NCBI RefSeq assembly: GCF_000422465.1
Contig: NZ_KE383842.1
Span: forward strand, 103,040 to 167,039
Source of the DNA: Paenibacillus harenae DSM 16969
Lineage (GTDB): Bacteria; Bacillota; Bacilli; Paenibacillales; Paenibacillaceae
DNA: 64,000 bases
Direction: 5' to 3'
Both the position numbers and the translations under genes were made by a program. Shown here piece by piece: positions 1-16,117 of this stretch. The number at the start of each line of letters is the position of its first letter. Position 1 is the first letter of the stretch. The notes beneath the pieces are model-generated. The model searched no databases, had not been told where the DNA came from, and saw only the letters and a list, made by a program, of their open reading frames with translations.

Positions 1-475
1 GAAACAAAGTTTTATTCGGGTGCAGGATATAGTATTGGCTTAAAACGCCGAGCCGGTATCCAAGCATTCTGTAGATGGAGCGGGCGACCGGGCTAATGCC
101 TATAGCCGCAAGCGTGCGGGGTCTGAACCGCTCCAGCAGGCAGAACAGCAGCGTAAGACCGAGGCCCGGCGCAGCCGCGTCTTCGCGCACCTTCCAGATG
201 GCCAGCCATATATCGCGGTACGGGGGCAGTGACGAATCGAATTGCGAGACCGGAATAAATCCGATCACCGCATGAATTTCATCAGACCCGCGATGGCGCG
301 CGATCAGGAAATGATAGCCGTCTGCATCGTTGTTCAGATGCTGCCAGTCCATCAGCGGGCGGTGAACCGCCAGAGGATGATCCTCTTTCCAGTGCCGGTG
401 CAGGAATTGCTCAAGCTCGGATAGTTCCGAGGGCTGACAAAGGCCGTAACGGTAGGCTTCGCTCCATTCACTCAT
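1..475 (-). CDS. GNAT-like N-acyltransferase, partial (cut by left window edge)
   Basis: An open frame starts at ATG 475 and runs off the left edge after 158 codons with no stop. It begins MSEWSEAYRYG and contains DGYHFLIARHRG, HAVIGFIPVSQ and a region around PGLGLTLLFCLLE followed by ISPVARSIYRMLGY. This is the layout of a GNAT fold: an N-terminal beta pair, a core strand, a loop where the acyl donor would bind and a late GY turn. The canonical Q/RxxGxG/A pyrophosphate loop is not clear, so the fold call is moderate. Its start codon overlaps the end of the upstream ligase gene (TGA at 468-470), so the two are translationally coupled. I infer that it transfers the acyl group prepared by the adjacent ligase and carrier protein to an amino sugar; an unrelated acetyltransferase role is possible. 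Confidence 0.6.
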   Translation of the reverse strand, partial: MSEWSEAYRYGLCQPSELSELEQFLHRHWKEDHPLAVHRPLMDWQHLNNDADGYHFLIARHRGSDEIHAVIGFIPVSQFDSSLPPYRDIWLAIWKVREDAAAPGLGLTLLFCLLERFRPRTLAAIGISPVARSIYRMLGYRLGVLSQYYILHPNKTLF

Positions 476-1832
476 GCTCAGCGATCCTCCTTATTTTTTT
501 AAAGCGTTGACTATGCAGCTCTTCATAGGTGAAGGCGATTCTGACGGGAACCTTATAAGACTGAAGCCGTTCAGAGCAGTGCTTCTTCACCCGCTTGGCA
601 AAGTCACGCTCATCCGGGGAAGCTTCCGCAGCTTCTGTCCTGCGAACTCGGGCGCATACCATTTGCCCGACGATCGGGCTGTCGACCCCGTAAACCGTAA
701 CCTCCGCGACTCCTTCAAGCTCAAGAATGACATTTTCAACTTCCGCCGGGTAAACTTTCTCTCCGCCGACGTTGATGATATCGGACGAGCGGCCCTTTAT
801 TCGCATATATTCCCCGTCGACCTCTACCAAATCGCCGGTAATAAACCATCCGTCATCGGTAAACGGGCTTGGAGCGTTCAAATAACCAAGCATGGCGGAG
901 CGTGCTTTCACCTGCAGCACGCCATCGACGACCCGAAGCTCATATCCGTCGCCGCCGATGGACACCCACAAGGAATCGGACGACTTCGACTTCGAACGCA
1001 GCGTGCCGATCTCGGTCGTTCCGTACTTCTGCAGCAGCGCCGCATGCGGCATTAGCTCCGCAATCCGCTTCAATGTGCGCTCCGGCATCACCTCCGTACC
1101 ATACGTAATATATTTGAGCGAGGACAGATCGTAGCGTGTGTATGCCTCGCTAAGCAGCAGCAGGTTCAGGAAGGTTGGCGACACGGGCAGAACCTCGATC
1201 CGATAAGCTTCAATGGCCAGGCAAATCGAGTCAGGCGACCGGTCGGACACGGTAATGATACAGCTTGCGTTCGATAATGAATAAAATAACGTATCGATGC
1301 CGCCGATGTGATCGAACAGAAGAAAAGCCAGCGTGCGCAAATTCCGGCGAGGTTTCTTATACTTCTCGAGCAGCAGATGCCAGTCATGGACGGCAGCTTT
1401 GCTGTTTCCTGTTGAACCGGACGAGAACAGCACAAGTCCGGGGTGCTCGGCTTGGCGAAGCTGCGCATACAACGGATGATCCGTTTGCCGCGGCAGCCAA
1501 TCAATCACCGGCGGAACATCCCCGGTCAGCCGGATGCGGACTTCGCCCCGGGCAAGCTCGCCGTACTGCTGCTTCTTTCGTTCAGCGCCTGGCGACAACG
1601 GGACGATGATGCACCGGTGCTCGATTAGCGCAAGCAGCAGGGCGACGGCGTCCGGCGAGAAATCGGCCTCTACAATCGCGACGGTTCCGCGCGTTACTGC
1701 ATGCTGACGAAGATAGCCCAGCCACGCTTGTATCCGATCATTTAACCAGCGGTAATCGTAAGAGCGGCCGTTCCACAGGACGGCCTCCCGGTCCTGATGC
1801 TGAACAAACCGTTCGACAAGGAATCCGATCAC
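468..1832 (-). CDS. AMP-forming acyl ligase (ANL superfamily)
   Basis: A 454-residue member of the acyl-CoA synthetase/adenylation family, which activates a carboxylate with ATP to an acyl-AMP and loads it on a thiol. Visible core motifs: FSSGSTGNSKAAVHDW near residues 136-151 (phosphate loop), YGTTE at 270-274, ITGD at 331-334, and GRSSDIINVGGEKVYPAEVE at 347-366 (hinge and C-terminal subdomain), with a late Lys in SQRFKKIRR. At 454 residues it is shorter than typical acyl-CoA synthetases (about 500-550) and nearer to DltA-type stand-alone adenylation enzymes. The neighbouring acyl carrier protein is the likely acceptor. The start is 2 nt after the reductase stop codon. Substrate unknown: a short or hydroxy fatty acid or an amino acid would fit. 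Confidence 0.85.
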   Translation of the reverse strand: MIGFLVERFVQHQDREAVLWNGRSYDYRWLNDRIQAWLGYLRQHAVTRGTVAIVEADFSPDAVALLLALIEHRCIIVPLSPGAERKKQQYGELARGEVRIRLTGDVPPVIDWLPRQTDHPLYAQLRQAEHPGLVLFSSGSTGNSKAAVHDWHLLLEKYKKPRRNLRTLAFLLFDHIGGIDTLFYSLSNASCIITVSDRSPDSICLAIEAYRIEVLPVSPTFLNLLLLSEAYTRYDLSSLKYITYGTEVMPERTLKRIAELMPHAALLQKYGTTEIGTLRSKSKSSDSLWVSIGGDGYELRVVDGVLQVKARSAMLGYLNAPSPFTDDGWFITGDLVEVDGEYMRIKGRSSDIINVGGEKVYPAEVENVILELEGVAEVTVYGVDSPIVGQMVCARVRRTEAAEASPDERDFAKRVKKHCSERLQSYKVPVRIAFTYEELHSQRFKKIRRIAEHE

Positions 1833-1834
1833 TC

Positions 1835-2548
1835 CTACACCCCTCCTAAATAAAGCACCTGTCCGGTTACAAAATCACTTTCAGGCTTCATTAGAAAATC
1901 GATAACGTTGGCGATGTCCTGAAATTCGCCGAAGCGCTTGATCGCCTGCCGGTTAAGAAGAGCCTCCATTTTGGCCTGCGGCACGGAACGGATAAGATCG
2001 GTTTTCACCGGCGTCGGACCGACGGCGTTGACCGTAATTCCGAACTCCGCGAGCTCGCGGGCGAGCACCTCCGTGAGGCTGGCAACGGCGGCCTTGGATG
2101 CGGCATATACGGCCTCCCCTTCCAGCTTGAGCGGAGCGGCGACGGTTGCGAAGTTAATGATGCGGCCGTAGCCGCGCTTTGACATCAGCTTTCCCGCCTC
2201 CCGGCAAAACAGAAACGTTCCGATGACGTTCGTATTCAAAATGTTCTGAACGGTCTTCATGGGCGTCAGCAGCACATGGTTCATGGAGGCGATGCCCGCA
2301 TTGTTCACGAGAACGTCGATCCGGCCGTAATCCCGGGCAATTTCGGCGAACATCTGCTTTACCTTCGCCTCATCGGCAACATCGAGGCAGTAATGGCGGT
2401 ATCCGGGCAATTCGGTATCCGCCGGTCCCCGGCTGCAGCCAATGACCTTGTAGCCTAAGCTTGCATAATACTCGGCTAAATAATAGCCGATGCCTTTACG
2501 GGTGCCCGTGATTAGAAGAACCTCATTAACATGGCCGGCTTTATTCAT
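1835..2548 (-). CDS. Short-chain dehydrogenase/reductase (FabG-like)
   Basis: A 237-residue classical SDR with the NAD(P)-binding motif TGTRKGIG at residues 14-21, NNAG in the middle and the catalytic YAASK. A longer reading up to 2677 exists, but it lies inside the carrier-protein gene in another frame. The ATG at 2548 overlaps the last codons of that gene (ATGAATAA), so I chose it. Sandwiched between a carrier-protein gene and an AMP ligase gene, the enzyme most probably reduces a keto group on a carrier-bound acyl chain, as FabG does, or reduces a sugar intermediate. The ligase ORF follows after 2 nt, marking a tight operon. Confidence 0.85.
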   Translation of the reverse strand: MNKAGHVNEVLLITGTRKGIGYYLAEYYASLGYKVIGCSRGPADTELPGYRHYCLDVADEAKVKQMFAEIARDYGRIDVLVNNAGIASMNHVLLTPMKTVQNILNTNVIGTFLFCREAGKLMSKRGYGRIINFATVAAPLKLEGEAVYAASKAAVASLTEVLARELAEFGITVNAVGPTPVKTDLIRSVPQAKMEALLNRQAIKRFGEFQDIANVIDFLMKPESDFVTGQVLYLGGV

Positions 2549-2852
2549 GATTGACCTGCTCTTGCAGCAGTCCGGCAATGTAATCGGACAGAATGCCGAT
2601 CGTCCGGAACGGGCTGTTCCGCAGCGACATGGCTTTCTCATCGGCCAAAACGACGGCGGCGTGGAAACGGTCTTCAATCGCTTGTTCGACGGCGACGATG
2701 AAATGAACGAGGCCCAGCGAATCGAGCGCGCCGCCGTTTCCGAATAAGACCAGATCCGGCGCTGCCCGAAGCTGCCGGTCAGGCGGCAAATTTTCGTTCA
2801 TCTCCTCAATGACTGAACCTATCGACTCCGCGATTTGAGATGTAAGCTCCAT
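2541..2852 (-). CDS. Acyl carrier protein
   Basis: A 103-residue acidic protein with the 4'-phosphopantetheine attachment motif GGALDSLGLVHF; the modified serine would be Ser45. Helix-forming acidic stretches follow (VEQAIEDRF), and the C-terminus ends LLQEQVNHE. It is longer than housekeeping AcpP (about 77 residues), mainly through an N-terminal extension, which suits a dedicated carrier. RBS AAAGGAAG lies before ATG 2852. It is the first gene of a four-gene operon (carrier, reductase, ligase, GNAT), and a sigma-K-like promoter sits 37 nt upstream. Its expected role is to hold the acyl group that the ligase loads, the reductase modifies and the GNAT transfers. Confidence 0.85.
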   Translation of the reverse strand: MELTSQIAESIGSVIEEMNENLPPDRQLRAAPDLVLFGNGGALDSLGLVHFIVAVEQAIEDRFHAAVVLADEKAMSLRNSPFRTIGILSDYIAGLLQEQVNHE

Positions 2853-2888
2853 ATCATCTTCCTTTCACAGTTCTACTTATTCTGCTCC

Positions 2889-2916
2889 CATACTATGTTT
2901 CTATCAGCGGGAGAGT
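2889..2916 (-). promoter_or_regulatory. Sigma-K-like promoter for the acyl-module operon
   Basis: On the minus strand the -10 reads CATAGTATG, one mismatch from the B. subtilis sigma-K consensus CATAnnnTA. An AC (within CAC) lies exactly 17 nt upstream of it, matching the short -35 of that factor. The element is 37 nt upstream of the carrier-protein start codon. Assignment is by consensus and position only. Confidence 0.4.
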
Positions 2917-3234
2917 GATACGACGATAGCCTGTTTCGACGTATGTACCGCGTACAGAATGCCGCGGACAATCATACTAGCGCGACAGGTGACGGGTAGG
3001 GCCTCGCGGCTTCGCAGATCAACCGGCGCAAATTAGGAAGCGGGCTTGTCCTGAAAGAAAATGCAGCGACGCGAAGAGTCCTATTCTACTAAATATGAGC
3101 TAGCACAAAAACAGCCGGCTGAGCAGCTTGAACGATGGGCCGCAAGAAGAACGCTTTTAAAAAAAGCGCTTCAATCGCGGCCACGGCTCAGCGCTCCGGC
3201 CAGCTGTTTTTTGCTTGGCTGTATGCAATTGCCG
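2917..3234. other. Intergenic region with hairpins after neuC
   Basis: No convincing gene. It separates the neuC end from the acyl-module promoter. Around 3150-3170 the minus strand can fold an AAGCG/CGCTT hairpin rich in T and A. Around 3105-3122 and 3200-3218 there are imperfect inverted arms (AACAGCCGGCTGAGC type). These probably form the transcription end of the legC-neuB-neuC operon. A plus-strand frame here runs into neuC antisense and is not supported. Confidence 0.4.
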
Positions 3235-4386
3235 CTATGTGGAAGTAAAGCTTTTGGTCAACAGCTGCGGGTGATTGTACAGCCGCTTCAGCAGCTGTAC
3301 GGCTCTCCGTTCGGGATAGTCGGTCAGGTCGTAAGGATTATCCGCGTTTGCGTTTCTGTCTGCATGAAGAGAGGCGGTCACGGCAGCCCGTATGCCGTCT
3401 TCGTCGTAATCAACGTGAGTGACGTTGGAGGCGTGAACACGGTCCTTCTGCCTTGCGCCGATATTGACGAAGGGAAGACGGAAGAACGGCGCTTCAATAA
3501 TGCCGCTGCTGCTGTTGCCAACCAGCATATCGGCATGCGCAAGCAGAAACAGATAGTCGCGTGAAGGCACCGAGGCGTAGTACCGGCGAAGCGGGCTTTC
3601 CTCAACGAAACGCTGAAGCTTTTCCTTGAAGATCTCGCCTCCGGCATCGCTGTTCGGGCCGATGACGAGAATCCGGGCCGTCTGCAAGCTGCGAAGCGCC
3701 AGCAGGACCGGATCGATCTGCGCTTCAAACGATAACGATTCTTTCGAATCGGGGTGCATGGCTAAGATGACCTTGGGATGGGGCGTCCCCATCCGATAGC
3801 GCGCCGTCAGCTGCTTCGACTCCGTTTCGGCGAGCGCTCTTATGCCGAGAATCTCGGTTTTCCTCAGCGAGCCGATTGGCTGAACCCGCCAAGGCTGCTC
3901 GCCCCGGTCAACCAGCCATTGTCCGGCAGCCGCAGCGGATACAAAATGAAGATGGGCGAACGTCGATACGGCATGCCTTACGCTGTCATCGGCCGAGCCG
4001 CTGATTTCGCCGCCGTGAAAATGGACAATTCCGATATTCTGGTAGTGCGCCGCTATCGCCGCCGCAAGCATTTCGCCGCGGTCGCCCAGCAGCAGCACGA
4101 GATCCGGTTGATCAAACTGGAATATATCGCTGAAGTAAAGAATGCCCAGCCCGAGAGACTGAGACATGGCATAGGTAGAGTCTCCTTTAACTAATATAGA
4201 GGGCGTTCCCGCCAATGTAAGGCCGTCGCTACGAATCTCGTTGATCGTTTTGCCGTACTCGTCAAGCAGGTGCATGCCCGTCGCAATCAGCTTCAGCCGA
4301 ATGTCGGCATCCTTCTCCAGCTCCAGCAGCAGGGGCCGGTAAATACCGTAGTCCGCCCTTGTGCCGGTAACGCAATGGATGTTCAC
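3235..4386 (-). CDS. neuC: UDP-N-acetylglucosamine 2-epimerase, hydrolysing (NeuC/LegG type)
   Basis: A 383-residue GT-B-fold enzyme of the hydrolysing 2-epimerase family. It inverts C2 of a UDP-HexNAc and releases UDP, giving the free ManNAc-type sugar for nonulosonate synthesis. Motifs in order: VTGTRADYGIYRPLL at the N-terminus, LLGDRGEMLAAAIAA, HFHGGEISGSADDSVRHA, and GNSSSGIIEAP near the C-terminus. The chosen start is GTG 4386: its ribosome site GTGAGGTGG overlaps the neuB stop codon and sits 6 nt upstream. An upstream in-frame extension to 4488 would overlap neuB for about 90 nt and has no family similarity. With a 4,6-dehydratase and aminotransferase present, the substrate is more likely a UDP-diamino-trideoxy sugar (LegG-like) than plain UDP-GlcNAc. 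Confidence 0.88.
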   Translation of the reverse strand: MNIHCVTGTRADYGIYRPLLLELEKDADIRLKLIATGMHLLDEYGKTINEIRSDGLTLAGTPSILVKGDSTYAMSQSLGLGILYFSDIFQFDQPDLVLLLGDRGEMLAAAIAAHYQNIGIVHFHGGEISGSADDSVRHAVSTFAHLHFVSAAAAGQWLVDRGEQPWRVQPIGSLRKTEILGIRALAETESKQLTARYRMGTPHPKVILAMHPDSKESLSFEAQIDPVLLALRSLQTARILVIGPNSDAGGEIFKEKLQRFVEESPLRRYYASVPSRDYLFLLAHADMLVGNSSSGIIEAPFFRLPFVNIGARQKDRVHASNVTHVDYDEDGIRAAVTASLHADRNANADNPYDLTDYPERRAVQLLKRLYNHPQLLTKSFTST

Positions 4387-4396
4387 AGGCGCCACC

Positions 4397-5434
4397 TCAC
4401 AAGAGTCCCCGCCAAGTAAGAGGCTCGCCTTTCTTGAACGTCCGCTTCGTCGTTCTGCCGGCCAACTGCTTGTAATGCGCGGCGTCAATGTCGCTAAGCG
4501 GCCTCAGGAATTGCAGATCCGCCTCCTGTATGAGATGGCCCGCAGGCAAATCTTTTCCCGCATAGACGCCTCTGCGCACAAGCATGCGAGTCTGGCTCTC
4601 GATCCCGGCCAATCGCTTCTGCGGCAATCCGAGAGCCTGCTCGACATGCCTGATCCCCTCAATCATCCGTTTGAACGGCTGCGGCTCCATTGAAGCTTGA
4701 TGATCCGGACCCGGCATCGTACGGTCCAATGTGAAGTGCTTCTCCAGTATTTTATAGCCGAGCGCGGCCGCGGCAATCGGAACCTCCATTCCGTTCGTAT
4801 GGTCGGAATAACCGATAATGCTGCCGAAGGCCGGCTTGAGCGTTTCAATAACGCGAAGATTAATGCTGTCATATGGCGCGGGATAGGCGGAGGTGCAGTG
4901 CAGCAGCGCGACATGGGGCGCATGCTTCAGCGCGTCGAACGCGGCTTCAATTTCACCCAGCGTCGACATGCCGGATGAGAGGATGACCGGCTTGCGCAAT
5001 GAGCCGACCGCTTCGAGCAATTGCAGGTTCGTGATGTCGCCGCTGCCGATTTTGAACGCCTCTACATTCATTTGACCCAGCCGATATGCGCTATTGATAT
5101 CGAAAGGGGTGGCGAGAAAAGTAACGCCTGAGGCGTCGCAGAAGCTTTTCAGCTCGAGAAATTCGGCGTCGGTTAACTCCAGGCGGCGAAGCATCTCCTT
5201 TTGTGTCGAGCCCTCCGTTCCTGCCTTCTGATACTCTACCAGCGCCGCCTGCTCGGATACGAGTTCCTCGCTGCGGAACATTTGAAATTTCACCGCGTCG
5301 GCTCCGGCATCCCGGGCAGCCTCTACCATTTGTTTGGCCAACCCGATCGATCCGTTATGGTTGACGCCGATTTCCGCAATGACGTACATCGGGCTGCGCT
5401 CCGTAATCATACGGCTGCCGATATTCAATTCCAT
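4397..5434 (-). CDS. neuB: Nonulosonic acid synthase (NeuB/LegI family)
   Basis: A 345-residue enzyme condensing phosphoenolpyruvate with a ManNAc-type six-carbon sugar to form a nine-carbon nonulosonic acid. The NeuB TIM barrel spans about residues 15-270, with YVIAEIGVNHNGS, DAVKFQMFRSEEL, FKIGSGDITN, LSSGMSTLGEIE, HCTSAYPAP and GYSDHTNG. A C-terminal SAF (antifreeze-like) domain follows from about 285 (RGVYAGKDLPAGHLIQEADL). The start at ATG 5434 has GGGAGAGGG upstream and lies 3 nt after the legC stop; a longer reading to 5470 would overlap that gene. Third-to-last step of the local pathway, before CMP activation. Sequence alone does not separate sialic from legionaminic synthases; neighbours favour the latter. 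Confidence 0.9.
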   Translation of the reverse strand: MELNIGSRMITERSPMYVIAEIGVNHNGSIGLAKQMVEAARDAGADAVKFQMFRSEELVSEQAALVEYQKAGTEGSTQKEMLRRLELTDAEFLELKSFCDASGVTFLATPFDINSAYRLGQMNVEAFKIGSGDITNLQLLEAVGSLRKPVILSSGMSTLGEIEAAFDALKHAPHVALLHCTSAYPAPYDSINLRVIETLKPAFGSIIGYSDHTNGMEVPIAAAALGYKILEKHFTLDRTMPGPDHQASMEPQPFKRMIEGIRHVEQALGLPQKRLAGIESQTRMLVRRGVYAGKDLPAGHLIQEADLQFLRPLSDIDAAHYKQLAGRTTKRTFKKGEPLTWRGLL

Positions 5435-5436
5435 AG

Positions 5437-6552
5437 TCAACCCTCTCCCTTTAACGCTTCGCTTAAGCACGCCACGACATAAGCTTGTTCCTTGGCCGTA
5501 ATATTCGAGTAGAAAGGAATTGCGATTGTCCGCTTAGAAATGCTCTCGCTTATAGGGAAATCGCCTTCCTTGAATCCGAATAGGCTCCGGTAGTAAGGAA
5601 ACAGATGAATGGAGGGGAAGTAGGGCTTGCTTTGCACGCCAGACCGCTCCAGCCGTTCGATGACCAGGCTGCGGTCCGTTCCTTCCGGCAGCTTCACAAT
5701 GAATACAAACCAGCTCATCTTCGAGTCGGGCAGGGGAGTTAACGTTTCAACAGGCAATCCCGCTTTCCGGATTAAGCGCACGTACCGGGCGGCGGCGCGC
5801 TCGCGCTTGCCGAGAATCGATGGCAGACGCTCCATCTGCGCCACACCTACGGCTGCCTGCAGATCGGACATCCGGTAGTTATAGCCTACCCGGTCATGCG
5901 TAAGCCATTCGCTGTCCGGATCTCGGCCTTGATTGCGCAGGCTGCAGGCCAAATGGTAGTAATGGAGGTTATCGGTGAGGAGAATGCCGCCTTCCCCGGT
6001 CGTAATTTGCTTATTTGGGTAAAAAGCAAATACGCCGATATCCCCCAGCGTGCCGGCGGGTCTGCCCTTCCATTCAGCACCGATCGCTTCGCATGCGTCT
6101 TCGATAACCAATAATTGATGCGCCTTCGCGATTCGCTGAATCTCGTCCATATCGCACGGGATTCCGAATACATGGACGACCAGAATCGCTTTGGTCTTCG
6201 GCGTAATCGCCGCTTCGATCCGGCTGGCATCGATATTGAACGTATTCGGATCGATATCGACAAAGACCGGCTTAACGCCTTCGTACAGCAGACAGTTCCC
6301 TGACGCCACAAAGCTGTACGGCGTCGTAATCACTTCATCGCCAGCCTGCAGGCCAAGCGCTTTAACGGCGACATGGAGGGCGCTTGTACCGCTGTTCATA
6401 GCTGCCGCATGCGAGGAGTGAAAGGTATTGCGGAAGCTCTGCTCAAAGCGGTGAAGCATATTCCCGAAGCTGAGCTGTCCCGAATTCAGCACCTGATGCA
6501 CATATTTTTTTTCCAAAGCGGTAATATCCGGTTTAGATAATGGAACCTTCAT
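5437..6552 (-). CDS. DegT/DnrJ/EryC1 aminotransferase (LegC-like)
   Basis: A 371-residue PLP-dependent sugar aminotransferase. It would convert the 4-keto sugar made by the divergent dehydratase to a 4-amino-4,6-dideoxy sugar. Visible: VPLSKPDITALEKKYV at the N-terminus, MNSGTSALHVAVKALG, GDEVITTPYSFVASGN, IEDACEAIGAEWKG, and FYPNKQITTGEGG holding the Schiff-base lysine. ATG 6552 has GGAAGGAACG upstream. It is the first gene of the minus-strand operon legC-neuB-neuC, with only 2-10 nt between genes. It resembles both LegC/PseC-type and SpsC (B. subtilis spore coat sugar) aminotransferases; the substrate is inferred from context. Confidence 0.85.
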   Translation of the reverse strand: MKVPLSKPDITALEKKYVHQVLNSGQLSFGNMLHRFEQSFRNTFHSSHAAAMNSGTSALHVAVKALGLQAGDEVITTPYSFVASGNCLLYEGVKPVFVDIDPNTFNIDASRIEAAITPKTKAILVVHVFGIPCDMDEIQRIAKAHQLLVIEDACEAIGAEWKGRPAGTLGDIGVFAFYPNKQITTGEGGILLTDNLHYYHLACSLRNQGRDPDSEWLTHDRVGYNYRMSDLQAAVGVAQMERLPSILGKRERAAARYVRLIRKAGLPVETLTPLPDSKMSWFVFIVKLPEGTDRSLVIERLERSGVQSKPYFPSIHLFPYYRSLFGFKEGDFPISESISKRTIAIPFYSNITAKEQAYVVACLSEALKGEG

Positions 6553-6821: not shown

Positions 6822-7844
6822 ATGATGGTCATTTCATCCAGACCTGTATCCCGCTTTTTCAAAGACAAAAAAATACTAGTCACCGGAGGCACCGGATCTA
6901 TCGGCGAGAGAATCGTATCTACTCTGCTAAGTTTCGAGCCGAAGCAGGTTATCGTATTTAGCCGGGACGATACGAAGCAATATTTAATGAGGCAAAAATA
7001 CGCAAAGGAAAAAAGGCTTCAATTTATTCTGGGAGACATCCGCGATTACGAGTCGGTCTCGTATGCCGTGAAGGGGATGGATTACGTGTTTCATGCGGCT
7101 GCCTTGAAGCAGGTTCCCGTCTGCGAAGATAATCCGTTCGAAGCGGTGCTGACGAATAATTTCGGCAGCTATAACGTGATACGGGCCAGCATATGGCATA
7201 AGGTCAAGAAGGTTATCAATATTAGCACCGACAAAGCTATAGATCCCAGCAATACGATGGGAGCCACGAAGCTTCTGACGGAAAAGCTGTTTAAGCAGGC
7301 AAACGGGGCGGTGAATAACGAAGCGACCAAATTCTGCTCTGTCCGGTTCGGCAACGTCATCGGCTCGAGAGGCTCCGTGTTTCCCCTCTTTATGCAGCAA
7401 GCCTTATCAGGCAAGCCGCTCACCATTACGGACCCGAGCATGACGCGTTTTTTTATGTCGATCCAGGAGGCGGCGAATCTGACGATTAAGGCCGCAACGT
7501 ACAGCGCGGGCGGCGAGACGTTTATATTGAAGATGGAATCGTTGAAGCTGGAGCACCTGGGCCAAGCCGTACAACAGTATTGCCGGCAATTCGGGCTTCC
7601 GGTGCCCGAAGTGGAAATCGTCGGCGTCCGTCCGGGCGAGAAGCAGCATGAAATGCTGCTCGGCCAAGAAGAGCTCGGGAATATGGTGGAAGACGACGAG
7701 CTGTACGTCGTACTGCCTGCGGGACGCAGCCAAGTGTTTCACCATTTCCGGCCATGCAAGGTTTCGGTGTACCGTTCGGATCAGAGTCAGCTGGTGCCGA
7801 TTTCCCGGCTGGTCGAAATATTAATCCAGTATGGGGAGAAGTAG
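6822..7844 (+). CDS. UDP-N-acetylglucosamine 4,6-dehydratase (LegB/PseB/CapE-like)
   Basis: A 340-residue extended SDR of the polysaccharide-synthesis type. It oxidises C4 and eliminates the C6 hydroxyl of a UDP-HexNAc, opening the pathway. Rossmann motif VTGGTGSIG lies near residues 21-29; then LGDIRDYESV, HAAALKQVPVCEDNP, NISTDKAIDPSNTMGATK (S/T-D-K and the Met-xxx-Lys that replaces Tyr-xxx-Lys in this family), CSVRFGNVIGSRGSV, and GVRPGEKQHEML. ATG 6822 follows a strong GGAGGAGGGAAGG. First gene of the right-facing operon. PseB-type inverting and LegB-type retaining enzymes cannot be told apart here, but the NeuC-type epimerase in the locus suggests the legionaminic branch. Confidence 0.85.
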   Translation: MMVISSRPVSRFFKDKKILVTGGTGSIGERIVSTLLSFEPKQVIVFSRDDTKQYLMRQKYAKEKRLQFILGDIRDYESVSYAVKGMDYVFHAAALKQVPVCEDNPFEAVLTNNFGSYNVIRASIWHKVKKVINISTDKAIDPSNTMGATKLLTEKLFKQANGAVNNEATKFCSVRFGNVIGSRGSVFPLFMQQALSGKPLTITDPSMTRFFMSIQEAANLTIKAATYSAGGETFILKMESLKLEHLGQAVQQYCRQFGLPVPEVEIVGVRPGEKQHEMLLGQEELGNMVEDDELYVVLPAGRSQVFHHFRPCKVSVYRSDQSQLVPISRLVEILIQYGEK

Positions 7845-7852
7845 ATGACGCG

Positions 7853-9286
7853 ATGCATAACAAAACCTGGGTAATATGGCGGCATAGCTTGCGATTCCTG
7901 GCAGCCTTTCAATCGCTGCAATATGATAACGTACCGCTTGGCATACTGCTGTTGCGCGATTTTCAAAAGTACGCTTTGCATCATCCGCGTTCCTTCCGCA
8001 GCTCTAAATTTGCGAGGGAAGGCCCGATCCGCAACCTTCATGCGGCATGCAAGCCGTATTTGCCGCCGGCCAATCCGGATTTGAGCAAATCCGGCTACAC
8101 GGCGGTCCGAGCCGAGCTATTCGGGGTTGCAAAGGGCTCGGGGGAAGAGAAGTTATTATTTGTTGCGCATCACCGGAGAGAGTACCGCTATATGGCAAAG
8201 CTGAAGGAGTGCAGGCCTCTCGTTTACCTGCATGGTCTGCCGCCGGCGAAACTGCCGCCGGCCCTTACTCATGCGACGATGCGAAAGCTGCGCGAATGTC
8301 TGGCTCATCGGTCCACGCCTGCGGTATTCCGTCAACGGGCTTTCCGGATATGGCTTGCGGCTCGCGTAAGACTGGCCATTCTCCACATCCGCAGGGTTCA
8401 TACTTTATTCGACCGTTACCCGATTAAACAAACGATATACGGCTCCACGATCAATCATCACGGAGCGCTGATTACTTCATTTGCCCAATCCCGGCATGTA
8501 CACACGGTTAATGTGCAGCACGGATTGTTTGGTCCGCTCGGGCATCTGCCGATTAATGCCGATCTGAATTTTGTATGGGGAAAATCGCATTCCGATTTTC
8601 TGAAGAGTTACGGGGCTCCGCCGGACAAAATCAAGATCAGCGGCCCTTGCTTCTACAGAAACCTGCAGACCAAACATTCGTCGGGAAGCAAATCGGCGTC
8701 TGCGCGGCTGCAGGTACTGGTTGCGTTACAGCCGCTCGGCAACCGTTTCAATAGAACGATGATCCGAAGGATCGAAAGGGCGGCAAGGCCGTACGGACGA
8801 AGCGTATTTGTCACCTATAAGCTGCACCCGGATCAGGGGAGCGCGAGTTTTTACAGAAGGCTGTTATCAGGCAGAAGATCAAAAATCGTAAGACACGGCA
8901 CGATTCCGCTTAATAGGCTGATTAACCGGTCTGACATCGTGCTGACCCCTTATTCCTCTGTCGCATATGAATCACTTATTAACGGAAAACCGGTATTTTT
9001 TTATAGGAGGCCGCGCTTTGTGTACTATATTCGCAACGCGCCGATTTATTTCCATACGTCAACTCAGCTCAAGCGGCTGCTTGCGAAATATATCGGAAAC
9101 ACGAAGCGGCTTGCCGCCGCGCACGCAAAAATGGGAGTCATCGATTCGGCGTCATCCGGAACGGACGGCAGCCGCTTCATTTGGTCCACGCTGCGCCTGC
9201 TGCAATTAGGCGCGTCCGGCAACATTGAGGGAAACCGCAGTCCCGTCACGGGCTTCGGCGCGAAGGAGGGGGAGGTACCGGAATGA
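7853..9286 (+). CDS. Putative GT-B glycosyltransferase (capsule/SpsB-like), nonulosonate transferase candidate
   Basis: A 477-residue basic soluble protein. I recognise motifs, not a named gene. VNVQHGLFGPLGH resembles the QHG motif of capsule and surface-carbohydrate enzymes. TYKLHPDQG near residue 323 carries an HP motif, and LTPYSSVAYESLINGKPVFF near 365-385 carries an SS motif; HP and S/SS pairs are seen in bacterial sialyltransferases and CDP-glycerol transferases. The ATG at 7853, 8 nt after the dehydratase stop, was chosen over an upstream reading inside that gene. It overlaps the CMP-transferase start by 4 nt. Position between sugar synthesis and CMP activation suggests that it uses the CMP-nonulosonate as donor; it could instead act on another nucleotide sugar, like B. 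subtilis SpsB. Confidence 0.6.
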   Translation: MHNKTWVIWRHSLRFLAAFQSLQYDNVPLGILLLRDFQKYALHHPRSFRSSKFAREGPIRNLHAACKPYLPPANPDLSKSGYTAVRAELFGVAKGSGEEKLLFVAHHRREYRYMAKLKECRPLVYLHGLPPAKLPPALTHATMRKLRECLAHRSTPAVFRQRAFRIWLAARVRLAILHIRRVHTLFDRYPIKQTIYGSTINHHGALITSFAQSRHVHTVNVQHGLFGPLGHLPINADLNFVWGKSHSDFLKSYGAPPDKIKISGPCFYRNLQTKHSSGSKSASARLQVLVALQPLGNRFNRTMIRRIERAARPYGRSVFVTYKLHPDQGSASFYRRLLSGRRSKIVRHGTIPLNRLINRSDIVLTPYSSVAYESLINGKPVFFYRRPRFVYYIRNAPIYFHTSTQLKRLLAKYIGNTKRLAAAHAKMGVIDSASSGTDGSRFIWSTLRLLQLGASGNIEGNRSPVTGFGAKEGEVPE

Positions 9287-9990
9287 AGGACAGTCGCGAG
9301 TTGCTTGCTATTATCCCGGCTAGAGCCGGGTCGAAAGGAATCCCGGGCAAAAATATTCGCCCGCTCGGCGGCAAGCCGCTCATCGCGTGGACGATCGAAG
9401 CGGCTCGGCAATCATCGCTGATCGGCAGAGTGGTCCTCACGACGGACTGTGAAGAGATTAGCGAGATTGGCCGCATGTACGGAGCAGAGACTCCGTTCTT
9501 AAGGCCAAAGCATTTGTCAGAGGATACGACTCCGATGGCGGACGTTATCTTTCATGTTCTCGAATCTCTAAAGGAACAATCCGGCGAGCTGCCCGGGAGC
9601 TTCATCCTGCTGCAGCCGACGACGCCACTCCGGACGGTGAAGCATATTAATGAAGCGATCACGTTATTTGACAAGCAGGATTGCGATGCCGTCGTCAGCG
9701 TATGCGAGGTCATGGAGCATCCCTATTTGATGAAAACCATTAAGGACAATGAGCTTCATGATCTGATCGCGGACAGCGGGAGACACACCCGAAGGCAGGA
9801 TTATCCGACGGTTTATAAGCTGAACGGCTGTATCTACGTTTACGACACGGAAATGTATCTGGCAAGAAAAGAGCTTCATATGCGCAAATACGTCCCCTAT
9901 ATTATGGAGGCCAAGGATTCGATAGACATCGACACGCCGTTTGATTTCGAAATGGCAAAGGCGTATTTAAAAGCAAGGGAACGAGGCTAA
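9283..9990 (+). CDS. neuA: CMP-nonulosonate cytidylyltransferase (NeuA/LegF/SpsF-like)
   Basis: A 235-residue nucleotidyltransferase that activates a nonulosonic acid with CTP. N-terminal signature IIPARAGSKGIPGKNIRPLGG, then PLIAWTIEAAR, VVLTTDCEEI, ILLQPTTPLRTV, and near the end AKDSIDIDTPFDFEMA (the metal-binding D-x-D). All are standard for CMP-sialate synthetases. ATG 9283 overlaps the preceding stop (ATGA) and is preceded by GGAGGGGGAGG. It completes the pathway in this locus; the exact acid is not determined by sequence. Confidence 0.9.
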   Translation: MKDSRELLAIIPARAGSKGIPGKNIRPLGGKPLIAWTIEAARQSSLIGRVVLTTDCEEISEIGRMYGAETPFLRPKHLSEDTTPMADVIFHVLESLKEQSGELPGSFILLQPTTPLRTVKHINEAITLFDKQDCDAVVSVCEVMEHPYLMKTIKDNELHDLIADSGRHTRRQDYPTVYKLNGCIYVYDTEMYLARKELHMRKYVPYIMEAKDSIDIDTPFDFEMAKAYLKARERG

Positions 9991-13947: not shown

Positions 13948-14952
13948 ATGAAGCTGTCGGCTGTGAAGTACAGTATTATCATCCCTATGTTTAACGAGGA
14001 AGAGGTTATCGAATTTACGTATGACCGGTTGAAGCAGGTGATGGACAGCACGGAGGAACCATACGAACTTCTGTTCGTCAATGACGGAAGCCGCGACCGC
14101 ACCGCCGGCAAGATGGCGATGATCTGCGAGTTCGACCCGAATGTCCGCCTCATTGATTTCTCCCGAAACTTTGGCCATCAGATCGCGATTTCGGCAGGCA
14201 TGGATTATGCGCAGGGAGCGGCGATCATCGTCATTGACGCCGATCTGCAGGATCCTCCCGAGGTGATCTTGAAGATGATCGCAAAATGGAAGGAAGGTTA
14301 TGAAGTCGTATACGGGAAGAGGCTGAAGCGCAACGGGGAGACGGTTTTCAAAAAACTGTCCGCTAAGCTGTTCTACCGCACGCTTCGGACCTTGACGAAT
14401 GTCGATATTCCCGTCGATACGGGCGACTTTCGCTTGATTGACCGCAAGGTGTGCGACGTGCTGAGAGGCCTGAAGGAAAAAAACAGGTTCGTCCGGGGAC
14501 TGGTCAGCTGGGTCGGCTTTCGGCAGACGATGGTCGAATATGAACGCGAGGAGCGGTTCGCCGGCGAAAGCAAATATCCGATCAAAAGAATGATTGCCTT
14601 TGCGCTGGACGGCATTACCTCCTTCTCTTACAAGCCGCTCAAGATTGCCACCTATATCGGGTTCGCGTTGTCGATAACCAGCTTCTTGTATTTGCTGATC
14701 GTCATCTTCCAGAAGCTGTTCACCGGCAGCACCGTTGCCGGCTGGGCATCGATCGTGGCGGTTAATCTGCTGTTCAACGGCATTATTCTTATCCTTCTTG
14801 GCTTAATAGGCGAATATATCGGGCGCATCTACGAAGAATCGAAGAACCGTCCGCTGTACATCGTCCGCGATAAGCTCGGTTATCCGGAGTCGGAAGGAGA
14901 GCGCGAAGCGGCTGACGAGAATTCCGCTCGGGTTGATAAATATGTCAAATGA
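13948..14952 (+). CDS. Polyprenyl-phosphate glycosyltransferase, GT2 (GtrB/DPM1-like)
   Basis: A 334-residue protein with a cytosolic GT2 domain (YSIIIPMFNEEEVIEF, LLFVNDGSRDRT, VIDADLQDPPEVI with the DxD-like DAD, TGDFRLIDRKV) and two C-terminal membrane helices (about 235-255 and 268-290). This is the GtrB/dolichyl-phosphate-mannose synthase layout: it attaches a nucleotide sugar to undecaprenyl phosphate. ATG 13948 has AAGGGGAGGATG upstream. It lies 22 nt after the GT-C fusion gene and overlaps the GtrA-like gene, forming a three-gene glycosylation operon. Donor sugar not predictable. Confidence 0.88.
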   Translation: MKLSAVKYSIIIPMFNEEEVIEFTYDRLKQVMDSTEEPYELLFVNDGSRDRTAGKMAMICEFDPNVRLIDFSRNFGHQIAISAGMDYAQGAAIIVIDADLQDPPEVILKMIAKWKEGYEVVYGKRLKRNGETVFKKLSAKLFYRTLRTLTNVDIPVDTGDFRLIDRKVCDVLRGLKEKNRFVRGLVSWVGFRQTMVEYEREERFAGESKYPIKRMIAFALDGITSFSYKPLKIATYIGFALSITSFLYLLIVIFQKLFTGSTVAGWASIVAVNLLFNGIILILLGLIGEYIGRIYEESKNRPLYIVRDKLGYPESEGEREAADENSARVDKYVK

Positions 14953-15367
14953 AAGCCGGAAGCGGCTTGCGGCGCAATTTATTCAATTTAATCTGGTCGG
15001 GCTTCTGAATACCGCGATTGATTTCCTGCTGTTTGCCCTGCTGACGTGGCTTGGCGTCTATTATTTGCTGGCTCAAGCGACCGCGTACGCGGCGGGAATG
15101 CTGAACAGCCTGCTGCTGAACAGCCGGTTTACATTCCGCAAGACGGACGGCAGCCGCACTTCCGGCAGCTTGAATTGGAAGACGGGCGTGCGATTTATTA
15201 TATGGAATCTTATCGTCCTCGGCCAGTCGCTGCTCCTGCTCGCGGCTCTAACGGAGTGGCTGAGCTTCGGAAGCGTATCGTCCAAGCTGCTTGTGACGGC
15301 GGTTACGGCAGGCATAAACTTCTATGGAAGCAAAAGATGGGTTTTTGCAGCCCGAGCGGCGGGGTGA
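14942..15367 (+). CDS. GtrA-like flippase of polyprenyl-phosphate sugar
   Basis: A 141-residue protein with four predicted membrane helices, typical of the GtrA/DPMS family (FIQFNLVGLLNTAIDFLLFALL, two middle helices, and a final TAGINFYGSKRWVF). It is thought to flip the lipid-linked sugar made by GtrB. The start at ATG 14942 overlaps the GtrB stop by 11 nt; an upstream TTG at 14933 is less likely. Together with the GT-C enzyme it completes a three-component Gtr-type system. Confidence 0.85.
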   Translation: MSNESRKRLAAQFIQFNLVGLLNTAIDFLLFALLTWLGVYYLLAQATAYAAGMLNSLLLNSRFTFRKTDGSRTSGSLNWKTGVRFIIWNLIVLGQSLLLLAALTEWLSFGSVSSKLLVTAVTAGINFYGSKRWVFAARAAG

Positions 15368-15409
15368 TTCACGCGGAGGCAATTATTTTTGTTGAGGCGA
15401 GGTGATTTT

Positions 15410-16117
15410 TTGAGGAAAATAGGGTCCTATACGCTGGTCGTCGCCGGCATCTTAATTCTGCTCTATCCGAAAGCGAACGAATGGTACGAGAACAGGCAGC
15501 AGAAGCAGCTGCTCGCGGAATGGGAGGAGTCCAGCTTTGACGAGGAAGCCCAGCAGCAAGCGCGGCGGCAATATGAGCAGCTAACGCAGTTATTTCAAGA
15601 GGAGTCGATGGACGAAGCCGCCACTGCGCCGACTATAACTCCCAGCGGAACTCCCAGCGGAACTCCATCGGAGGCTCCCGCCCAGACACCTGTCCAAACC
15701 CCGGCAGCGAAGCCTGCCGTGCGGAAGCCAAGTCCGATCGCAACCATTACGATTGATTCCATCAAGCTCAAGCTGCCTGTCCTCGAGGGCGCGACGCAGA
15801 AAAACATGAAATCCGCCGCAGCGCATTTAAAGGAAACGACAGCGATCGGCCAAGTAGGCAACGCGGCTATCGCGGGCCATCGGATGCGATCGAAGGGGAG
15901 ATTGTTCAACCGGCTCGGCGAGATGGAGGTCGGAGATAAAATCGTCATCAAGACAAAGGACGAGACGTTCACGTACACGGTGTATAAAATTTCGATCGTC
16001 GAGCCGACGGACGTATCCGTGCTTAATTATAACAACAGAGACAAATTGCTGACCTTGATTACTTGCGACCCGATCGTAGACCCTACGCACCGGTTAATCA
16101 TCCACGCGAAAATATAA
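15410..16117 (+). CDS. Class D sortase
   Basis: A 235-residue membrane-anchored transpeptidase. Helix at residues 5-20, charged linker, Pro/Thr-rich spacer at about 73-109 (TPSGTPSGTPSEAPAQTP), then the sortase barrel from 110. Catalytic residues are all present: His157 (AGHRMR), Cys219 (TLITCDP) and Arg228 (THRLIIHA). TTG 15410 is the best start, with GAGGTGAT 7 nt upstream; a TTG at 15389 precedes the ribosome site and is rejected. It follows the glycosylation operon and precedes gerE. No protein with a sorting signal (LPNTA/LPxTG plus helix) is visible in the window, so its substrate lies elsewhere. Class D sortases of spore formers often serve sporulation. Confidence 0.88.
   Translation: MRKIGSYTLVVAGILILLYPKANEWYENRQQKQLLAEWEESSFDEEAQQQARRQYEQLTQLFQEESMDEAATAPTITPSGTPSGTPSEAPAQTPVQTPAAKPAVRKPSPIATITIDSIKLKLPVLEGATQKNMKSAAAHLKETTAIGQVGNAAIAGHRMRSKGRLFNRLGEMEVGDKIVIKTKDETFTYTVYKISIVEPTDVSVLNYNNRDKLLTLITCDPIVDPTHRLIIHAKI

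Follow-up and report, generated by a model that had tools for sequence, protein, structure and literature searches.

A recurrent transferase–deacetylase pair with variable acyl sources beside a nonulosonic acid locus of Paenibacillus harenae: a candidate N-acyl exchange system

Nonulosonic acids bear several different N-acyl groups, and the genes for some of them, such as the N-glyceroyl group of Tannerella, are reported to be missing (PMC6120980, PMC6388019). How such groups are installed is the question raised by one end of a 64,000-nucleotide stretch of the Paenibacillus harenae DSM 16969 genome (G000:C1:103040-167039, referred to here as the window; source genome of 6.97 Mb in 28 contigs). 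Genes for a putative acyl carrier protein, a short-chain dehydrogenase/reductase (SDR), a stand-alone AMP-forming acyl ligase and a GNAT-like N-acyltransferase lie there close to genes for nonulosonic acid synthesis. An earlier interpretation made from the letters of the window (the sequence-only reading) took these four genes for a module that builds a special acyl group on a private carrier and transfers it to an amino group of the nonulosonate. Based on sequence comparison, the balance tips somewhat towards a system of five genes, the four named and a deacetylase gene beyond the window, which on a sugar resembling legionaminic acid would exchange one N-acetyl group for an acyl group borne on the carrier.

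The cassette consists of five genes, all abutting or overlapping, in the order carrier, SDR, ligase, transferase and deacetylase. On the reverse strand of the window, the carrier gene (2541-2852; 103 aa) has a ribosome-site-like AAAGGAAGATGAT upstream of its ATG, the FabG-type SDR gene (1835-2548; 237 aa) begins with an ATG overlapping the carrier stop by 8 bp, the ligase gene (468-1832; 454 aa) starts with GTG 2 bp past the SDR gene, and the start of the transferase gene, also on the reverse strand, overlaps the ligase gene by 8 bp. Only 158 of the 364 aa of the transferase fall inside the window (1-475; whole gene G000:C1:102420-103514). The gene of the NodB-type polysaccharide deacetylase (G000:C1:101381-102436) lies wholly beyond it and overlaps the end of the transferase gene by 17 bp, or by 8 bp from the first ATG, the protein being 351 or 348 aa long, respectively. 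The tight coupling seen in the sequence-only reading is thus confirmed by gene order and overlaps, but the GNAT had been seen in part and the fifth gene was out of view.

The transferase was searched in 295 genomes of the family, 398 of the phylum, 59 of the class of G670, two of the family of G441 and 51 of the genus; these sets overlap, and the E cut-offs ranged from 1e-10 to 1e-30. Twenty-two loci were compared, i.e., 15 Bacillota genomes (all matches, including the source genome G000), one Bacteroidota locus (L005) and one of Helicobacter saguini (L006), both from one single-protein pattern scan, one locus from a plasmid search (L092) and four viral contigs from a viral scan (L035-L038), phyla beyond Bacillota being thinly sampled. 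For L005, L006, L092 and the viral contigs the flanks were 2-12 kb per side, within which NeuB is visible at less than 14 kb only. Open reading frames (ORFs) came from a simple script, which small carrier genes may escape.

A deacetylase gene was found near the transferase gene in 17 of the 22 loci and at most 100 bp away in 14, L021 having it on the other strand. Carrier genes were near the transferase in 15 of the 18 bacterial loci, a count that includes the 'carrier' of L027, which has no serine and lies beside a truncated transferase copy; none was found in L026, L028 and L092. A true NeuB occurred within 14 kb of the transferase in 11 of the 22 loci, the DAHP-synthase-like genes of L033, L034 and L042 being excluded on their weak NeuB scores (all three) and on Pfam (L033). 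Each of the 15 Bacillota genomes has one strong NeuB, and in nine of them it lies within 14 kb of the transferase, as compared with 0.08 genomes expected by random placement, a figure that assumes random placement and independent genomes, the latter violated by the kinship among them. The proposed links of the GNAT to nonulosonate genes and to the carrier are therefore upheld.

The remainder of the module behaved differently. Window-type carriers were found in 43 of the 295 family genomes, and 12 other loci with such a carrier served as a control (one of them in G006, whose transferase sits elsewhere). No transferase, deacetylase or NeuB was found within about 10 kb in any of these 12, a ligase was present in all 12 and an SDR in four; the triad of carrier, SDR and ligase without nonulosonate genes (4/12) is therefore generic on its own. 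The four genes are thus not supported as the travelling unit, as the transferase pairs with the deacetylase while the triad is replaced or separate. The constant core is the transferase and the deacetylase, and the acyl source is variable.

Some other features of the surveyed loci can be recorded here. In three of the four control loci with the triad (L081:9091-15493, L082:4384-12161 and L083:7775-15558), it stands beside an adenylation-domain protein of 1793-1809 aa, nonribosomal peptide synthetase-like by size. A window-type carrier domain fused into a protein of 473-543 aa, with a ligase adjoining, was found in L085-L091 (7/7 such loci; e.g., L085:8450-11207), and of the 43 family genomes with the carrier, 37 had long frames of at least 476 aa. 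L027:3883-16610 has two transferase matches, one cut to 105 aa near the serine-less carrier-like ORF, and this second copy looks like a decaying duplicate.

What kind of enzymes make up the core? At least 713 homologous proteins make up the transferase family. The window member had no match in Pfam (E<=1) or NCBIfam, and the GNAT model PF00583 was carried by 3 of 120 homologs among the matches listed. Its predicted structure is a two-lobe GNAT fold (pLDDT 89), and by sequence its profile matched solved structures weakly (best E 0.009); a C-terminal signature, KGDSDQDRPN, marks the transferase of the core. The deacetylase is a member of the NodB/CE4 family (PF01522, 60.4 bits vs. a cut-off of 23.1), and the residues of its TFDD, HxxxH and RxD motifs (D73, D74, H224, H228, R305 and D307) were identical in all 17 aligned sequences, including that of the window locus. 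Its best NCBIfam match was PgaB, at 68.9 bits far under the cut-off of 321.9. No signal-like hydrophobic stretch was found at the N terminus of either protein, and the deacetylase is predicted to be cytosolic.

Viral contigs also carry the pair. In L035:3415-9665 and L036:8737-15206, IMG/VR contigs with terminase large subunits, genes for NeuB, the transferase, the deacetylase, a CMP transferase, a DegT aminotransferase and NeuC form a run, with Pfam support for five genes of L035 and two of L036. As judged by gene content, this is a virus-borne nonulosonate pathway with a predicted acyl-exchange pair, only the dehydratase being not in view. L037:9194-10894 and L038:9267-10897 are viral contigs with the deacetylase–transferase pair, in which NeuB was not seen; L037 encodes a tape-measure protein as well as a virion protein, and the one L038 protein scanned matched just a PHROG of unknown function. 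The annotated phages gave no transferase match. Plasmid records gave one (L092), together with FkbH, and no deacetylase, carrier or NeuB was found in its 25 kb.

These observations bear on the improbable alternative that the cassette N-acylates a polymer or some other amino sugar within one surface glycan, so that its adjacency to neuB would reflect no more than a shared glycan locus. The window starts in a glycan region, the contigs L037 and L038 carry the pair without NeuB, and PgaB is the best NCBIfam match of the deacetylase, all of which would fit such a role. On the other hand, the proximity of NeuB in nine of 15 genomes and the position of the pair within a nonulosonate run on two phage contigs argue against it, and a secreted polymer deacetylase is unlikely in view of the N terminus.

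The acyl group, in the preferred reading of an N-acetyl swap, would be prepared by the first three genes. The carrier contains the DSL serine motif (LDSLG), with L43, D44 and S45 invariant in 34 aligned sequences; hhalign matched its profile to that of the carriers found elsewhere in the survey at 96.7%, two such carriers that were scanned both match PF00550, and some sources name the homologs 'acyl carrier protein' or DltC. Its identity as an acyl carrier is supported by this serine, the homolog names and the profile match. The SDR (tested as 1835-2545) matches PF13561 with 175 bits and, among NCBIfam models, best a 3-oxoacyl-ACP reductase (165.7 bits, under the cut-off of 297.75); the TGxxxGIG and YxxxK motifs are present, and a Thr replaces the Ser 13 residues before the Tyr, as judged by eye. 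The ligase matches PF00501 (103.9 bits) and PF13193 (45.9 bits), and its adenylation core, STG..K, TGD and C-terminal Lys446 are conserved in the motif columns of 12 aligned ligases.

A very improbable explanation, raised as an alternative in the sequence-only reading, is a DltA/DltC-like route in which the ligase loads an amino acid such as D-alanine and the transferase makes an N-aminoacyl sugar. Some carrier homologs are indeed named 'D-alanine--poly(phosphoribitol) ligase subunit 2', the carrier profile weakly matches D-alanyl carrier proteins (E about 0.01), and the L020 ligase resembles amino-acid adenylation proteins (295.1 bits vs. a cut-off of 317.4), with a motif common to the ligases of L021, L027 and L028. 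However, among solved structures the window ligase comes nearest in sequence to acyl-CoA ligases (89.1 bits for the best), whereas a DltA chain (41.3 bits) comes last in the best 60 of 143 solved-structure matches, and no DltA is present in the best 25 of 100 NCBIfam matches. The HIGG of the window ligase aligns with the HIAG/HMAG of L024/L005 and not with the FD of L020, L021, L027 and L028, in a region made uncertain by two gap positions. Moreover, the SDR would be left without a role. An acyl-type ligase fits the window gene better than a DltA-type one, and the DltA/DltC alternative is not favoured by these rankings.

If the pair is constant, which sources accompany it? A ligase, an SDR and a carrier occur at the window locus, L005, L024 and L025. 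L022, L033, L034 and L042 instead have a MocA dehydrogenase with a ligase and a carrier, joined by a DAHP-synthase-like gene in three of the four (L033:11987-15911, L034:2241-6274 and L042:10963-14815; PF00793 was tested on L033). Ketosynthase and SDR genes are found in L020, L021, L023, L026, L027 and L028, and FkbH in L006, L029, L030 and L092; in the viral loci no acyl source was seen. In L006, the transferase and carrier are accompanied by FkbH (TIGR01686, 263.5 bits; cut-off 146.65) and two methyltransferase-like genes, with no deacetylase in view; the one methyltransferase-like gene scanned is TylF-like (PF05711), and the set looks like one for an O-methylated glyceroyl group.

L025 holds LuxC (PF05893) and LuxE (PF04443) together with the carrier, a FabG-like SDR and the ligase, all adjoining the transferase. 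This full set speaks for the view that the cassette serves to make a long-chain liposugar, an idea put forward by others for the carrier-FabG-ligase-LuxE-LuxC genes in flagellin glycosylation islands of Aeromonas and enterobacteria. At the window locus, LuxE and LuxC were not seen and no chain-elongation enzyme was found, and this explanation is the least probable of those considered here.

When mapped on a transferase tree with 21 sequences, the source types were clustered (8 changes vs. a shuffled mean of 13.0, with none of 200 shuffles giving so low a number), near relatives inflating this clustering. The MocA type forms one side of a branch with support of 100/100. The ligase+SDR type was unclustered (4 changes vs. 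a shuffled mean of 3.8), and the starred branches require that it was gained or lost at least twice. The tree fits a constant transferase with exchangeable acyl donors.

To which sugar, and to which position, would the acyl group be transferred? The genes upstream of the cassette on the reverse strand are neuC, a legG-type hydrolysing UDP-sugar 2-epimerase (3235-4391; ORF open to 4488, likely start about 4390; TIGR03568, 353.9 bits, cut-off 235.9), the nonulosonate synthase gene neuB/legI (4397-5470; PF03102, 298.3 bits; TIGR03569, 400.6, cut-off 399.65) and a legC/pseC-like DegT aminotransferase gene (5437-6552; PF01041, 395.3 bits). NeuC/LegG and NeuB/LegI both exceed their curated cut-offs, as expected of a legionaminic-type epimerase and synthase, and this NeuB is the only strong one in the genome, the second PF03102 match having just 35.6 bits. 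The aminotransferase scored 315.2 bits for PseC and 290 for the LegC family, both under the cut-offs, and the name 'legC' is therefore given by analogy. On the forward strand, and thus divergent, lie a PseB-like UDP-GlcNAc 4,6-dehydratase gene (6822-7844; PF02719, 331.9 bits; PseB 307.9, under the cut-off of 407.75) and a PseF-like CMP-nonulosonate cytidylyltransferase gene (9283-9990; PF02348, 96.9 bits; PseF 167.5, under the cut-off of 205.7). All matches at the locus to the curated LegB/LegC, PseB/PseC and PseF equivalogs were under cut-off.

Between neuC and the carrier gene there is a gap of 382 bp (2853-3234) with a terminator-like hairpin on the reverse strand at 3128-3113. Three terminator-like sites were counted in 2700-3400 vs. 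a mean of 0.6 in shuffles, two of the three on the opposite strand, and no promoter-like site was found in the gap. Because of the gap and the weak terminator-like site, a transcript shared with neuC-neuB is not established. The location of the cassette after a neuC-neuB-legC operon, as described from the window, accordingly stands for NeuC and NeuB, but is qualified by the gap and by the analogical 'legC'. Another sugar cluster lies upstream in the source genome (L003:7664-12932), with a CMP-transferase, two SDRs and three Gfo/Idh/MocA-type dehydrogenases, two of them Pfam-confirmed; these genes resemble those of the ptmA/ptmB type. After this second cluster, L003 contains a YheC/D ATP-grasp gene (14807-15922).

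In the proposed mechanism, the ligase would activate a free acid with ATP and then load it onto the carrier, and the SDR would reduce a keto group to give a carrier-bound hydroxyacyl group, most likely a short one such as hydroxybutyryl; such a product is suggested because a ligase and a ketoreductase are both present at the window locus. The cytosolic deacetylase would strip the N-acetyl group inherited from UDP-GlcNAc, which is at C5 in the finished sugar, and the two-lobed transferase would acylate the freed amine from the loaded carrier, either before or after CMP activation. C5 is the likely site because an amine coming straight from the aminotransferase would need no deacetylase.

A different and unlikely possibility is that the transferase stands in for LegH/PseH and puts the carrier-borne acyl group on the C4 amine that the aminotransferase creates in the UDP-sugar (C7 of the nonulosonate), the deacetylase acting elsewhere or later. 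It is kept in consideration because the window locus is without NeuD and a good NeuD, the only one above cut-off in the genome, sits on another contig (C2); moreover, no PseH gene was found at the locus, nor any PseH above cut-off in the source genome. The phage loci L035 and L036 and the bacterial loci L034 and L042 are likewise without NeuD in their stretches, and the N-glyceroyl group of Tannerella pseudaminate, whose gene is unassigned, is at C7 (PMC6120980). Against this, no partner is as constant as the deacetylase, which is kept even where the stretch covered shows no aminotransferase (L005, L021, L024, L026, L033, L037, L038 and L042), and four loci (L022, L023, L025 and L030) pair the transferase with a NeuD/PglD-type acetyltransferase above cut-off (197-235 bits vs. 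160.8). L024 and L029 were not counted here, as their NeuD candidates stay under that cut-off at 63.9 and 91.2 bits, respectively. The earlier suggestion that the GNAT fills the LegH/PseH step is consequently weakened, since it would also make the deacetylase needless.

Several findings weigh against the swap at C5. The window carrier had no Pfam match, including PF00550, even at E<=1, and no NeuD/LegH-type enzyme was found at the window locus, so that the transferase could act at C7. No deacetylase was found within the stretches of L006, L020, L027, L028 and L092. A carrier was found in none of the four viral loci, which suggests that the transferase may use acyl-CoA. In six of the 15 genomes (G441, G111, G173, G146, G213 and G122) the transferase is far from NeuB, and in five of these six it is inside ketosynthase islands of unassigned product. 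The generic nature of the triad counts on the same side. Confidence is moderate in the exchange mechanism and low in the exact acyl group and site.

On a wider scale, and more tentatively than for the window locus, a carrier-dependent two-lobe transferase and a cytosolic NodB-type deacetylase might form a general core for nonulosonate acyl exchange, served by interchangeable carrier-bound sources and also taken up by phages to alter nonulosonates. As part of this reading, the same core might, just as tentatively, supply the genes still lacking for the attachment of N-hydroxyacyl and N-glyceroyl groups to these sugars. If the pair is an acyl exchanger, the acyl group should be predictable from the neighbouring acyl-source genes, such sugars could be synthesized in vitro, and surface-sugar diversity would be explained with the backbone unchanged. 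It would also be the first role for the transferase family, whose window member is without a Pfam or NCBIfam match. The sequence-only reading was partly supported: its observation was real and its theme well guessed from a truncated view, and an acyl-exchange pair with a plug-in source is the better description. No account of the transferase–deacetylase pair with exchangeable sources was found in a literature search in which most matches were unopened and subscription journals were thinly covered.

Among known systems, N-acylation of nonulosonate precursors is carried out by PseH, LegH and PglD/NeuD, which have a single-lobe GNAT or a hexapeptide fold and use acetyl-CoA as donor, whereas the window transferase is a predicted two-lobe GNAT encoded beside a carrier. 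The DltA/DltC system is similar in its stand-alone adenylation enzyme and small carrier; DltB and DltD are the remaining D-alanylation partners, in place of which an SDR and a GNAT are found here, and the window ligase is nearer to acyl-CoA ligases.

In Aeromonas group II, the flagellin glycosylation island contains orf1-orf3, luxE and luxC, including a carrier, a 3-oxoacyl-ACP reductase and an AMP ligase, for a possible liposugar (PMC7874193), and enterobacterial flagellin islands have carrier, FabG and ligase genes with the same suggestion (PMC4875605); these genes lie amid genes for pseudaminate or another flagellin glycan. The carrier-SDR-ligase order near nonulosonate genes is shared with Aeromonas, as compared by gene kind and not by sequence; a dedicated N-acyltransferase is not named in the available text of either report. 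In Tannerella forsythia, the gene for the N-glyceroyl group of Pse5Am7Gra is called elusive (PMC6120980, PMC6388019). The loci with FkbH, carrier and transferase would be suited to such a group, the glyceroyl site there being C7. Nonulosonates with hydroxybutyryl groups have been described (PMC6388019). In Acinetobacter, the outer-core gene 'pda' has been assigned to UDP-D-GlcN, carrier genes being unmentioned in the available text (PMC3628348, PMC7200062), and this hints that nucleotide sugars can be substrates of such deacetylases. A survey of Vibrionaceae nonulosonate clusters does not mention an acyl carrier, deacetylase, acyltransferase or GNAT (PMC7371886). A Clostridium lead, Leg5GluNMe7Ac, was abandoned, as the main text of PMC13317340 mentions no acyl carrier, deacetylase, acyltransferase, GNAT or ligase.

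The flagellin of Campylobacter jejuni 11168 carries Pse5(2,3-di-O-methylglyceroyl)7Ac, which is lost when Cj1295 is disrupted, and its authors proposed cleavage of the C5 acetamido group followed by substitution (PMC3068675). The replacement of a C5 acetamido group by a non-acetyl acyl group is the same as that predicted here from genes alone. The two systems differ in that Cj1295 is described as aminopeptidase-like and the deacetylase here is of the NodB type, and in that the acyl group there is di-O-methylglyceroyl and the transferase is unnamed in the available text (PMC3068675). Cj1298 and its neighbours, once considered as members of the transferase family, were dropped without sequence comparison. 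The O1 antigen of Yersinia ruckeri contains a nonulosonate with a C5 hydroxybutyramido and a C7 acetamido group, which would match the product predicted here. Genes confined to Y. ruckeri strains of serotype O1 include an 18-gene legionaminate cluster (tags 14300-14395) with its own PglD-like acetyltransferase and, apart from it, BI323_13885 for a phosphopantetheine protein, 13890 for an AMP synthetase, 13895 for a 3-oxoacyl-ACP reductase and 13905 for a polysaccharide deacetylase (PMC5552943). Tag 13900 is unlisted in the published table, which omits hypothetical proteins. By that table, and not by sequence, the gene order is as in L005, with the transferase slot blank. The set is filed under 'other proteins', with no function proposed in the available text, and the table neither identifies gene 13900 nor ties the set to a sugar, which is a further point against the swap. 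Taken as a whole, the Y. ruckeri O1 table nevertheless raises both the swap at the window locus and the general exchange core, and lowers the alternatives of acylation at C7 and of a different sugar.

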